This document shows positions 5,091-30,866 of a stretch of 64,000 nt of DNA, piece after piece. The notes under the pieces are model-generated. The model did no database searches and was not told the DNA's origin. It was given only the letters and a program-made list of their open reading frames with translations. The stretch spans positions 228,855 to 292,854 of the forward strand of contig CAUYUJ010015848.1 in assembly GCA_963575745.1 (NCBI GenBank). Direction: 5' to 3'. A program made the position numbers and the translations under genes. Origin of the DNA: Prorocentrum cordatum. Taxonomy: Eukaryota; Sar; Dinophyceae; Prorocentrales; Prorocentraceae. Every line of letters starts with the position of its first letter. Position 1 is the stretch's first letter.

Positions 5091-5197
5091 GTGTTCTTGC
5101 AGGGCTGGACCTGAACGGAGTTTTGGCGATTTCGTGGGCCGTTTTCGTTTCGATCTCGTTTTGCGGTAAAGGTTTAGGTTCAGCCCTGTGCTCTTGT
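5091..5197. mobile_element. introner-family TIR element outside any recognised gene, with target duplication
   Basis: The element body is 5101-5187 (87 bp). It starts AGGGCTGGACCTGAACG and ends GGTTTAGGTTCAGCCCT, which is nearly the inverted complement. The ends match those of the introner in the channel gene (27100-27239). The flanks GTGTTCTTGC (5091-5100) and GTGCTCTTGT (5188-5197) match at 8 of 10 positions, as expected for an aged 9-10 bp target duplication. The interior is rich in TTTTCGTTTCG, like the TTTTCGTTTTG of the other copy. Confidence 0.8.
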
Positions 5198-20532: not shown

Positions 20533-22102
20533 GCAACAACAAATGGTGACAGAAAGCCACTGGCGCCATCCGCGCCGGAGGCTTCACGTGGAAAGAGCAG
20601 TCGCTCCAGACCATGGCTGGCGGTGGCGCAACCATGGAGGACGCCGCCGGCATTCGCTGTGCTGTGGGTGATTCGATTGTGGAGTTCGCACCTGTACAAC
20701 GCATGCTGGTCTTAGGGGAGTTATTGGATAACCGCGGCAGCACGGCGAGCAGCATCGATTTCAGATTATCCAAGGCCGAGGGCAACTTCTGGGCCAACTC
20801 ACGGGCACTCTGCGCTCCTGGGATGGTGGTTGACAAGTTGAGTGCCTGGGGCAGGGGGCCGAGAGCGTCTGCCCTGCACGGAGTACAGAATTGGCACCTG
20901 ACGCGGGATCTACTTCACAGAGTTTCGACATGGGAGCTCAAGTGGCTACGGCGGACGCTTCGCATGCGCCGCAAACCCGGGGAGACACACGCGGAGTATT
21001 TACAGCGCACAGCCTTGAGAATCAAACAATGGATGACACGTTCCAGATATGCCCCTGCACACGTAGCCGCACTCAGATCGTATTTTCATGGGGCCTATCG
21101 CGAGCGAAAGTCTTGCATGGAGAACGGCACATCTCTACTCAGCTTGGCGAGGGAATACAATTCTAGGAACGAATGGGAGACTTGCAAAGATTTTCCGGCC
21201 AAGCGGCGTCGTCTGGAAGGACTTCTACAACGCGGCGGTGGCCGTCGGGCGTCTTGGGAAGATCCGATTGTACACTGTATGGGAGAGAATTGGCGGCATG
21301 ACAGAGATGCTATGACATGGGCGGAGTGGAGGAGGCGATCAACGGGCCTTGTGGCAGAAGTGTGCGCACGCTGGCATCTCCCGCCTTGCGACGATGGTGA
21401 CCGAGGCGGGCCTTCAGCCGCGGGATTGCACGCAGACCGCGGGGCCGAGGACGACAGGTTGATCTTCAGAAATTTGGAACCGGAGCCCGACGAGCTTGAA
21501 GACACCGTTGCTGTTCATGTGGATTGGGCTTCCGAGAAGATGCACATACTGTATGCGACGGACTCCAAAACATTACAGGAAGTAGTACGTGGTCACGCAA
21601 AATTGCGGGAAGAGGGGTATGAACCATTACTCGCACGGGTACTGTGCCGGATCGTTGATCACATGGGCCGAGGGTGGCTTCCTCCATGCATCAACCAGGA
21701 CCCAGTTCAATGGTGGAGGCGGAGCTACAACAAAGTAGCGGATGGCTTGGCCAACATACCAATGGATACCCGGCGAACGTGGACGAAAAGATACGCGCAC
21801 CATATGTCCATGCAGGAAGCCAACGTGGTGATCCAGACGGACGGGGGCCTACGTGACGGTGACTGTGCCGCGGCTGCCTGGATTATCGGTCTGTGGGGAA
21901 AGCCTGCTGGTGGCCACCATTATCGTTACGAGCCTGTCGTTGTGCACGGCACGTTCATCCAGTTACCTTGCACGGCTTTCGGAGCAGAGGCTATCGCATT
22001 GGACGAAGCGTCACGAGAAGTTGCCGCCCTACTTCTACAACTGAGGCAAACGGCTGGCATTTAGGTGTCTTGAGACCGTCACGAACAGAACAGAACAGAA
22101 CA
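20533..22102 (+). mobile_element. LINE-3: 5'-truncated non-LTR retrotransposon in ATG microsatellite
   Basis: Only the 3' part of a LINE is present: the end of the reverse transcriptase, the thumb/connection and the RNase H domain. The coding match starts right after the microsatellite (one early TGA at about 20548, then QKATGAIRAGGFTWKEQ). It runs to the stop at 22064 and a 38-bp tail ending in ACAGAACAGAACAG. The truncated 5' end and intact 3' end fit target-primed reverse transcription. It carries a long intact frame, unlike LINE-1 and LINE-2, so it may be a younger insertion. Confidence 0.85.
20613..22064 (+). CDS. LINE ORF2 C-terminal fragment: RT end, connection and RNase H
   Basis: The frame is open upstream to about 20551, so the ATG at 20613 is only the first Met. 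The order is: RT palm end (MLVLGELLDNRGSTASSIDF, then RLSKAEGNFW); RT thumb (SALHGVQNWHLTRDLLHRVS, TWELKWLRRTLRMRRKPGET); a middle region; a motif-poor linker with WTKRYAHHM; then RNase H beginning VVIQTDGGLRDGDCAAAAWI and TAFGAEAIALDEASREVAAL. The first RNase H acidic residue (DGG) and the second (GAEA) are present. Other dinoflagellate LINE proteins, as I recall them, end near this point, so the stop may be natural. No catalytic RT aspartates are present in this fragment, so it cannot work alone. Confidence 0.85.
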   Translation: MAGGGATMEDAAGIRCAVGDSIVEFAPVQRMLVLGELLDNRGSTASSIDFRLSKAEGNFWANSRALCAPGMVVDKLSAWGRGPRASALHGVQNWHLTRDLLHRVSTWELKWLRRTLRMRRKPGETHAEYLQRTALRIKQWMTRSRYAPAHVAALRSYFHGAYRERKSCMENGTSLLSLAREYNSRNEWETCKDFPAKRRRLEGLLQRGGGRRASWEDPIVHCMGENWRHDRDAMTWAEWRRRSTGLVAEVCARWHLPPCDDGDRGGPSAAGLHADRGAEDDRLIFRNLEPEPDELEDTVAVHVDWASEKMHILYATDSKTLQEVVRGHAKLREEGYEPLLARVLCRIVDHMGRGWLPPCINQDPVQWWRRSYNKVADGLANIPMDTRRTWTKRYAHHMSMQEANVVIQTDGGLRDGDCAAAAWIIGLWGKPAGGHHYRYEPVVVHGTFIQLPCTAFGAEAIALDEASREVAALLLQLRQTAGI

Positions 22103-26134: not shown

Positions 26135-28284
26135 ACCGTTTGGAGCGGTTTCCAGAATTCTCAGCGCTCCACTGCGAGTACGGGGCGGTGGCGCTTGCTG
26201 ACTCCCGCGAGATGCACCAGTTGTCCTCGCCTGCGGGTGCGTTCCGATTCGATGAGGGACGGTCTCAACCGCCTGCTGCCGTTGGGCTCGCGGAGCTGAT
26301 CAGGCAACAGGCCCTCGCTGCACGGCAGGTGCTGGCCCTCAACGAGCAGCTCGCGCTGGCTCTCGACGATCTGTCGGCTCGGGACCCTGGGAATCCAGAA
26401 GTTGTTGCTCCTCCAGCGGAAGCACTTTGTGAGTTCAAGGGCACGCCACTCGCATCCATGGACCCTACACAGTGCTCCATAGAGGATCCGACACAGTCGA
26501 CGCCGCTGTTGCAGGGTGTGAAGACGGACGACTTCAAGAGCCGTGCATACTTGACGCAGAATCGGCTTAATGAGTGTAAGGCCATCGGGATCGTGAAGCA
26601 GAAGGCGGACCCGCATTTTTGCGAAGCGCGCGATTACAAGGACCACGGCCTGTCCGCTAGGCTTGTAAAGCATCCAAGGTTCGAGTCGGTGATGTTCATC
26701 ATGATCGTATTAAACAGTATCTGGCTTGGGGTTGAGGCAGACTACAACAAGGAGGACATATTATGCCAGGCTCCCTTGGTATTCCAGGTAGTGGACAATA
26801 TATTCTGCACCTACTTCACCGTCGAGTTCATGCTGAGGTTCTTTGCCCTGAAGCACAGAGCAAGGGCGATGAGAACTGGACCATTTCTGCTGGACGCCTT
26901 CTTGGTCATTGTTAGTGTGTGGGAGACTTGGGTGCAAGTCCTCGTATTCCTCATCTTCCAGCGGAGGGCGGGCATGGGCGGCGTCCTCAAGAGCTCGCTT
27001 TCCCTGCGAGTGCTGCGCATAGTGCGTGTGCTTCGCGTGCTTCGCGCGTCGCGGTCCATGCCGGTGCTGCTCACATTCATGGAGGGCATGATCAAAGGCA
27101 GGGCTGGACCTAAACGCTGTTTTGCTGGACTTCGGCTATGTTTTGTTTTTCGTTTTGGCATGGATGTACAGGACAACAGGTAGAGCAAAACGAAACCATA
27201 ACGAAAACAAAACGAAAAACAACGTTTAGGTCCAGCCCTGATCAAAGGCGTGAAGGCCGTCGCCACGAGTCTCCTGCTCCTGATCGGAGTGATCTACGTG
27301 TTCGCTATCATGCTGCGCTGCCGCGCGCGATTCCGGCACCGCGCTCGGGTGGGCGCGAGGGGGGGGGGGTCGCCTTGGGGGGATTCGCATATTTCGGGCC
27401 ACTCACGCCCCCCCGCCGTCGTCACGCCATCCATATCCATTTCGGGGGGTCCGGGGGGCATCTTGGGCCACAGGGTTCGAATAGAATGTCCATGTACGGG
27501 AGGGGGGAGGGGGGAGGGTCCACGGACACCCCCTCTCCCGCAAGCTTTGCATGTGGACCATGCGTGTGCTTGGAAGGCCAAAACCGCAGGGACCAGGCGA
27601 CAAAACACCGGGCGCAGCTCGGGCTCGATGCGGCGGGGGGCCCTGGCCGTTGCTCCGCAGAGGACGAAAGGGCCCGACGCACACCAACCGCCGCAGGCGC
27701 GGTGGCGGATTCTTTTCACCCAGCTGCTGGGGGGCACAGCACCGTTTCAGTCGTCATTCGGCACCGTGTTGACGTCTGTGCACTTCCTCTTCCTCACGGC
27801 CCTCTGCAGCATCGACAAGAACTTCATCATCCAGATGCTCGACGCCGGATGGATGTGTTGGCTCATCTGGTTGCTCTTCATCTTGGTCGCGAACCTGACG
27901 ATCATGAGGATGTTGACTGGCGTGATCCTGAGCCTTGTCCAGGACGTGAATGCGCAGAACAAGGGGAACGACGGGAAAAACCAGCTGATGCGAACAGTTT
28001 GTGTCATGATGGATGAAAACATGAACAATCGAATCTCGAGGGAAGAGTTCAAAGCACTGGCCAACCGCCCCGACCTCATGGAGCTTCTCACCGAGTCGGG
28101 AGTCGACCTGGGCTTCTTTGTCGAGACGATGCTGGACAGCTGGCCGCACTACGAGGAAGTGTCCGCCGACCACTTGGTGACCCAGATGGTCAAGTGCCGC
28201 GGCTCCAACACCGTTACGCTGGAGGACCTGATCAGGCTTGGCGGCGCGCAAAAGGGGGTAGGGGGAGGGGGGACGGCTTTTTAG
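26119..28284 (+). CDS. voltage-gated cation channel domain protein with C-terminal EF-hand
   Basis: One ion-transport domain of the Na/Ca channel type in the plasma or an internal membrane. From the Met at 26119: a Gln/Leu-rich N-terminal helix (about 60-85); S1 FESVMFIMIVLNSIWLGVEA (from residue 188); S2 VFQVVDNIFCTYFTVEFMLR; S3 starting FLLDAFLVIVSVWETW (from 256); S4 SLRVLRIVRVLRVLRASR with an arginine every third position (about 294-313). Intron 1 (27098-27247) splits codon 327. S5 (VKAVATSLLLLIGVIYVFAI) follows. A second intron lies at about 27315-27715. Then come the pore region (TQLLGGTAPFQSSFGTVLTS), S6 (WLIWLLFILVANLTIMRMLT) and an EF-hand loop DENMNNRISREE at about 28012-28050, suggesting calcium control. 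The stop at 28282 lies in a TIR element (28254-28396). More exons upstream cannot be excluded. Confidence 0.85.
27098..27247 (+). mobile_element. introner: TIR transposon-like intron in the channel gene (GC-AG, 150 bp)
   Basis: The body is 27100-27239 (140 bp), starting AGGGCTGGACCTAAACG and ending CGTTTAGGTCCAGCCCT, a perfect 17-bp inverted repeat. It is flanked by a perfect 10-bp direct repeat, GATCAAAGGC, at 27090-27099 and 27240-27249. Splicing from GC at 27098 to AG at 27246-27247 restores ATG ATC AAA GGC GTG without gain or loss of coding sequence. The target duplication therefore supplied both splice sites. The interior pairs further: TTTTGTTTTTCGTTTTG against CAAAACGAAAAACAA. Confidence 0.92.
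27315..27715 (+). other. second channel intron, boundaries approximate
   Basis: S5 ends at about 27315 and channel-like sequence resumes near 27710 (FTQLLGG). The stretch between is free of stops in this frame, but encodes low-complexity, Gly/Pro/Arg-rich sequence with G runs, unlike a channel. An AG followed by G at about 27694 is one acceptor candidate. I cannot fix the donor. Confidence 0.55.
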
Positions 28285-28396
28285 AAGTAGCCTGCTTCTT
28301 AGAATGCGCTGGCCCTACATCTATAGACGAGGCCCGCGCCTTCTAAGACGCAGGGGTCATTCTAAGAAGCCTTCCCCCTCCCAGTACCCCCCTCTG
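28254..28396. mobile_element. TIR element overlapping the channel C-terminus
   Basis: The left end GGGGGTAGGGGGAGGGGGGA with CGGCTTTTTAGAA pairs with the complement of the right end, which reads GGGGGTACTGGGAGGGGGAA with GGCTTCTTAGAA. The middle has a second, nested pairing (GCTTCTTAGAATG against CATTCTAAGAAGC). The last residues of the channel (KGVGGGGTAF) and its stop come from this element. Confidence 0.7.
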
Positions 28397-30683: not shown

Positions 30684-30866
30684 TACTCCAGATTTCGTAA
30701 TAAAAGGGAGGGGGTCTGGACCCTCCAATACAAGCCATTTCAGACCTCCCCCGTGGGAGAACCCTCCAAAACATCGTCCCCAGACCCGCCAGGCCCTCCA
30801 AGATAGCCTGGAAGACCCCCCCCCCCGAAATGAGACCCCCCTCCCTTTATTACGAAATCTGGAGTA
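30684..30866. mobile_element. 183-bp MITE with about 32-bp TIRs and TA ends
   Basis: The left end TACTCCAGATTTCGTAATAA with AAGGGAGGGGGTCT is mirrored at the right as the complement of CCTCCCTTTATTACGAAATC with TGGAGTA, with one indel and almost no mismatches. TA at both ends suggests a Tc1/mariner-type target. The interior contains short CCTCCAAxA repeats and has no coding potential. Confidence 0.85.

Follow-up and report, generated by a model that had tools for sequence, protein, structure and literature searches.

A transposon copy with hAT-like ends predicted to form a GC-AG intron in an ion channel gene of Prorocentrum cordatum

Described introners and the present locus

A close comparison for the locus described here is the set of introners reported by Gozashti et al. 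2022 (PMC9860276), which comprises 548 families, with target site duplications (TSDs) in 49 of 130 and terminal inverted repeats (TIRs) in 72 of 177 according to the accessible part of that work. Splice sites derived wholly or partly from the TSD are described there as well. These data bear out the statement in the original prediction that introners with TIRs and TSDs are known from other protists. They share with our element the form of a short non-autonomous DNA element with TIRs and a TSD, the creation of an intron (here predicted) and an mRNA whose length mostly stays unchanged. The Symbiodinium introner in that study has 4-bp TSDs and supplies its own 3ʹ splice site, whereas here the TSD is 8 bp, the predicted 3ʹ site comes from the TSD and the predicted donor is split between TSD and element. 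The Aureococcus introner has an 8-bp TSD, as in our case, but adds 12 nt to the mRNA.

Introns of P. cordatum itself have been reported to be enriched in introner elements (IEs) defined by a general repeat pattern (Genome Biol. 2023, PMC10666404). Inverted repeats of 8–20 nt, direct repeats near the intron ends and the frequent use of GC donors and AGG acceptors are shared with the present locus. The published IEs were, however, counted by that general pattern, with direct repeats of 3–5 nt, and the accessible text gives no family, TSD length or superfamily for them. Our predicted intron falls within the published pattern (8–20-nt inverted and 3–5-nt direct repeats, at most 30 bases from the intron ends) if its longer direct repeat is counted. 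The IEs of Amoebophrya (Farhat et al. 2021, PMC7789003) also form hairpins, with inverted repeats located within the intron ends and direct repeats that overlap the boundary between exon and intron, but in the part of that source available to us no family-specific inverted repeats were detected in them and they lie mostly in introns with non-canonical splice sites, whereas the element studied here has fixed ends and a predicted GC-AG pair.

A survey of dinoflagellate introners (Roy et al. 2023, Curr Biol, as cited in PMC11453091) may include hAT-like families, and a 2025 paper, known to us through citation, deals with new introns arising from transposons of diverse function. The word hAT is absent from the main text of the introner papers PMC9860276 and PMC7789003, and none of the papers listed in our literature search combined introners with hAT, which is weak evidence of absence as the most relevant papers lay outside the search. 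Dinoflagellate introners with TIRs and TSDs have already been published; what is worked out here, from sequence, is the element family and the exact rule by which it would make an intron.

Anatomy, family and superfamily of the element

The window, a stretch of 64,000 nucleotides from contig CAUYUJ010015848.1 of P. cordatum, contains at positions 27099–27240 (forward strand) a 142-bp MITE copy, identified from its repeat anatomy and a survey of copies, with hAT-like ends CAGGG...CCCTG and with no recognised coding sequence. Its TIRs, CAGGGCTGGACCTAAACG, form a perfect pair of 18 bp at 27099–27116 (forward strand) and 27223–27240 (reverse strand). Two copies of an 8-bp TSD, ATCAAAGG, which the copy survey delimited, lie beside it at 27091–27098 and 27241–27248 (both forward strand). 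The original prediction had described a perfect 17-bp inverted repeat and identical 10-bp flanks, and both are present exactly, the former at 27100–27116 and 27223–27239 and the latter, GATCAAAGGC, at 27090–27099 and 27240–27249. Taken alone, this copy fits two parses, either 17-bp ends with a 10-bp duplication or 18-bp ends with the 8-bp ATCAAAGG. Copies elsewhere decide the choice, placing the terminal C and G inside the element.

This survey drew on the window and 77 loci, which together gave 68 distinct copies with paired ends; the two ends had at most three mismatches each and lay 60–300 bp apart. The copies are not a random sample, as they were taken from among the first matches listed and both ends had to fall within three mismatches. 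At the eight inner flank positions, left and right agreed in 51, 59, 56, 58, 57, 56, 58 and 57 of the 68 copies, whereas agreement was limited to 22, 16, 16 and 26 copies over the four preceding positions and to 23, 15, 17 and 27 over the four that follow. The base 5ʹ of AGGG was C in 60 of these copies, and the base 3ʹ of CCCT was G in 66. The target duplication is 8 bp, and the terminal C and G are part of the element. In the 10-bp repeat, the outermost G and C are, on one side each, the fixed last and first bases of the element, which match the target here by chance. A TSD of 10 bp was rejected because flank agreement across the paired copies spans exactly eight positions; the identical flanks of the original prediction stand, the duplication shrinks to its inner 8 bp, and the 17-bp inverted repeat extends to a full pair of 18 bp.

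The 64-kb window is rich in repeats and inverted words by themselves are common in it; pairs 50–800 bp apart numbered 22 for 18-bp words and 168 for 12-bp words, and the element at 27099–27240 was the only pair with identical 8-bp flanks. In sixty first-order Markov simulations no 18-bp pair arose, 12-bp pairs averaged 5.8 and never exceeded 14, and none had identical 8-bp flanks. Consistent with its inverted repeats, the transcript of the element region is predicted to fold into a long hairpin (z −7.8).

Genome-wide matches were counted over 4,128,499,153 bases in 21,875 contigs (4.13 Gb). With at most one mismatch, the 17-base end gave 4,539 + 4,498 = 9,037 single-end matches, compared to 6 + 6 = 12 for the reversed pattern, and exact end pairs 95–125 bases apart occurred 146 times genome-wide and never in the control. 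The repeat end, for which the original prediction had suggested a genome search, is present thousands of times, and the element family shows the similar sequence at many places in one genome by which introners are recognised. The modal element length was 143 bp (26 of the 68 paired copies). After 16 of the 68 copies with more than one TSD mismatch were dropped, 52 with at most one remained; subfamily A accounts for 39 of them and subfamily B for 13. The copy at 27099–27240 differs by 4.2% from the majority of the 39 subfamily-A copies, for which the median is 7.8%. A second, shorter family copy of 89 bp, belonging to subfamily B, was located in the window at 5100–5188 (forward strand) by the window scan and the copy survey, with TSDs TGTTCTTG and TGCTCTTG matching at seven of eight positions. 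The exact TIR was not found in viral contigs (two of eight scans of viral contigs).

Other repeats were also seen in the window. A 183-bp segment at 30684–30866 has perfect 21-bp inverted ends, TACTCCAGATTTCGTAATAAA, and is perhaps another MITE; no target duplication was seen for it in a simple test. A 77-bp segment with 13-bp inverted ends, GCTTCTTAGAATG, lies at 28294–28370, shortly downstream of the last recognised channel coding sequence. An open frame of 504 aa at 20550–22064 has what we take to be a resemblance to part of the reverse transcriptase/RNase H of a non-LTR element.

As for the superfamily, the element is probably of hAT type. It has an 8-bp TSD, seen across the 68 copies, an 18-bp TIR lying within the hAT range of 5–27 bp (PMC3517528) and a CAGGG-type end, as expected of a hAT MITE. 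Mar, a hAT MITE of Drosophila (PMC3517528), is likewise non-coding and has 8-bp TSDs and ends of the CAGGG type, CAG(G/A)GGTAGGC; unlike the element here it is 610 bp long with 11-bp TIRs, and the accessible text describes no intron-making role for it. The genome contains eight matches to the hAT dimerisation domain. At three of these eight loci (5–6 kb each, one with 100 N) no autonomous partner was found, the best end match having 5–6 mismatches in 17. None was found either among five copies with a single end: four of them seem to be truncated versions of this MITE, and the fifth, L001, diverges after about 26 bases. As no autonomous source was found, we infer the superfamily.

Another cut-and-paste superfamily with 8–9-bp duplications, such as Mutator-like or P-like, would change this label and leave the intron unaffected. 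The hAT label draws on two features only, the length of the TSD and the CAGGG terminus; agreement of the TSDs with the Buster consensus nnnTAnnn, in the form given by the source available to us, is not clear, and none of the three examined hAT loci bears the element ends; furthermore, Mutator-like elements of Aedes have 8–9-bp TSDs, with TIRs shorter than 60 bp in two of 14 families in the accessible part of PMC5225508. However, TIRs exceed 100 bp in 12 of those 14 families, compared to 18 bp here, and our flanks match at eight positions with no ninth, so that the element fits the Aedes families poorly, while the ends and 8-bp TSDs are those of the hAT MITE Mar. We regard a different superfamily as unlikely and keep the hAT-type label.

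The channel gene, its predicted intron and other exon copies

The element lies in a channel gene (Pfam Ion_trans, 5.2e-22) on the forward strand. Its upstream coding exon, whose start codon is assumed, spans 26212–27097 according to the reading frame, homologues and Pfam. The predicted intron of 150 nt, with in-frame stops inside, spans 27098–27247 and is followed by a downstream coding exon at 27248–27309, placed by frame and homologues, which would belong to the S5 region and whose 3ʹ end is uncertain. Further channel coding sequence with approximate ends, recognised from frame, Pfam and homologues, lies at 27712–28250. Read from the sequence, the junction would fall between S4 and S5.

If the insert were retained, the reading frame would run into its in-frame stops. 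There are 12 equivalent registers in which its removal keeps the best protein, and one of them, 27098–27247, has a GN donor and an AG acceptor, with GC at 27098–27099, AG at 27246–27247 and then G. The joined protein reads MEGMIKG|VKAVATS, in agreement with the exact restoration of the Met-Ile-Lys-Gly-Val codons that had been predicted. The idea that the duplication made both splice sites holds for the AG acceptor, which lies in the second target copy. It fails for the donor, which is half target and half element (G being the last target base and C the first element base) because the TSD is 8 bp rather than 10.

At the protein level the site is uninterrupted elsewhere. All 15 aligned homologues run through it, namely two close relatives (P0001 and P0002, 70 and 72% identity) and 13 more distant rows, so the comparison of homologues called for by the original prediction found the insert absent from every one. 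The two close relatives read IEGMLKG-VKAVATS and IDGMVKG-VKAVATS, and their contigs of 1,816 and 1,395 bases are transcript-like. In the same genome, at least 121 matches to a 157-residue stretch were listed, with 150 of 357 candidates scored. The channel locus itself stops at residue 138 of 157; among the other listed matches, 99 of 120 span the junction as one match, four end at residues 129–134 and 17 end earlier, run-through being judged by match extents and not by residue-level inspection.

The frame is interrupted a second time at about 27307–27711. No GN-AG pair occurs at the borders giving the best protein, GCTATC|ATGCTG ... CGGATT|CTTTTC, or in the four registers next to them, and the best GN-AG choice adds three residues. 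As this interruption has no clean splice pair, decay of the channel gene, a non-canonical intron or mis-assembly is possible. Outside the two interruptions, the channel frame is open and 70–72% identical to the two related proteins.

For the 52 copies retained after the TSD filter, both flanks were then joined by script and the frames were read by eye, AGG-ended copies first and more closely. Up to two frames of the predicted strand were viewed for each AGG-ended copy, and one best frame for each of the 43 others. Three of these 52 well-preserved copies, in three different genes, split exons. This is a minimum, since the joined frames were for the most part assessed by eye and one of the three, L046, holds coding sequence that Pfam did not detect. 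Upon searching Pfam with seven joined frames, L046 included, we found no family; a missing Pfam match is compatible with coding sequence, as L046 was shown to be coding by protein search.

Besides the window copy, L039 splits an anoctamin exon, VWSK|GLVC (Pfam Anoctamin 1.8e-31). The sequence there runs ...TGG TCC AAG, the predicted donor combines the target's G with the element's C, and the predicted acceptor is CCAAG|GGC. The site is uninterrupted in all five hits, the closest of which (P0028, 79%) starts only four residues before the junction. L046 splits a CNG-like exon, LIRH|PFFHRF (L046:1500–1630), which is uninterrupted in seven aligned of the 155 homologues found, and the join gives ATT CGG CAC CCG TTC. 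Its TSDs are CGGCACCC on the left and AGGCACCC on the right; the predicted GC donor lies within the left TSD after CG, not AG, and the predicted acceptor AG|G lies in the right. The two TSD copies differ at their first base, reading CGG on the left and AGG on the right, and the AG acceptor exists on the 3ʹ side only. One base changed after insertion would account for the mismatch, either as a silent exon change (CGG and AGG both encode arginine) or as a change inside the intron.

In the predicted splicing, the window copy, L039 and L046 share one register, with a GC donor and an AG|G acceptor at each site, and the joined frames match homologues at all three exon sites, so that, assuming splicing, the insertions would leave the mRNA unchanged. 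Among the other 49 copies, a GN-AG pair in the allowed register was available at 15 of 98 strand-oriented sites. The nominal p for three of three exon copies being spliceable in register was ~0.0036, and that for two of two without the window copy was ~0.02 (0.153 squared); both values are only indicative because AGG-ended copies received a closer look, L039 being found among them and L046 among the rest.

These results bear on whether the element might simply be a recent unspliced insertion that breaks the channel gene, as an allele or a pseudogene. Retention would give in-frame stops, and the next interruption of the gene has no canonical splice pair, both of which this explanation would accommodate. 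However, the single available GN-AG register restores the conserved protein, the frame is otherwise open and 70–72% identical to two relatives, and all three exon copies allow an in-register GC-AG pair compared to about 15% of oriented sites, with the closer reading of AGG-ended copies borne in mind. We consider an unspliced insertion improbable. Another origin, in which an older intron received the MITE and only appears to have been made by it, is highly improbable. Insertion into an existing intron would often be expected for copies in genes given the average intron length of 4,709 bp (PMC10666404, in its accessible part), but both TSD copies are coding sequence directly beside the element, no remnant of another intron is left, and the examined homologues have no break here at the protein level.

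The best reading, which the evidence supports, is that a TIR element split a coding exon and became a predicted GC-AG intron with the mRNA unchanged. The single splice pair, the homologues without the insert and the ends found in thousands of places support the transposon-like introner proposed for this channel gene. We conclude that a transposon very likely made the predicted GC-AG intron at 27098–27247, with an 8-bp TSD.

Proposed origin of the intron and its meaning

The following sequence of events would account for the locus. A non-autonomous hAT-like DNA transposon, presumably moved by a hAT-type transposase, would have inserted by cut-and-paste into an uninterrupted coding exon with the empty site GATCAAAGGCGTG, and the insertion was probably fairly recent. 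It would have duplicated the 8 bp ATCAAAGG. Since the coding strand of the target ends with AGG and the first base of the element is C, the junctions would read AAAG|GCAGGG on the left and AAAG|GCGTG on the right. If the host can use GC donors and prefers AG|G acceptors, such an insertion would act as a GC-AG intron from the start and its excision would give back the exact original codons, and the segment 27098–27247 is probably spliced in this way. Introns of P. cordatum are reported to have 51.4% GC donors and 79.7% AGG acceptors in the accessible text of PMC10666404.

The targets of the family speak against a specialised intron maker. Introners were reported to be enriched in genes in 161 of 175 genomes, which the accessible text of PMC9860276 gives as a trend and not as a strict definition. 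Genome-wide, exact ends were preceded by AGG in 106 cases and by GAG in 129; a genome-wide enrichment of AGG targets was rejected on these counts, and the family shows no AGG-ended excess of the kind expected from the introner trend of enrichment at splice-competent targets. Six further AGG-ended copies, five of them with a recognisable TSD, showed no coding junction recognisable by eye. The small number of exon-splitting copies and the lack of an AGG excess fit an ordinary transposon whose exon insertions survive when they are spliceable.

The locus would represent a codon-exact case of intron gain by a DNA transposon, which follows a one-line rule: the target ends with AGG on the sense strand and the element starts with C. 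The case suggests that an element can become an introner as a by-product of host splice-site tolerance rather than through a property that it evolved itself. Tentatively, we propose a more general possibility, that in hosts splicing GC donors well every hAT-type element may be a latent intron: with half of the donor provided by the fixed C at its end, any 8-bp duplication ending with AGG on the sense strand would directly give a complete GC-AG intron with no intron-specific adaptation of the element. The absence of a genome-wide AGG enrichment fits this proposal. If it is true, dinoflagellates would gain introns through passive filtering of ordinary transposition, explained by relaxed use of the 5ʹ splice site.
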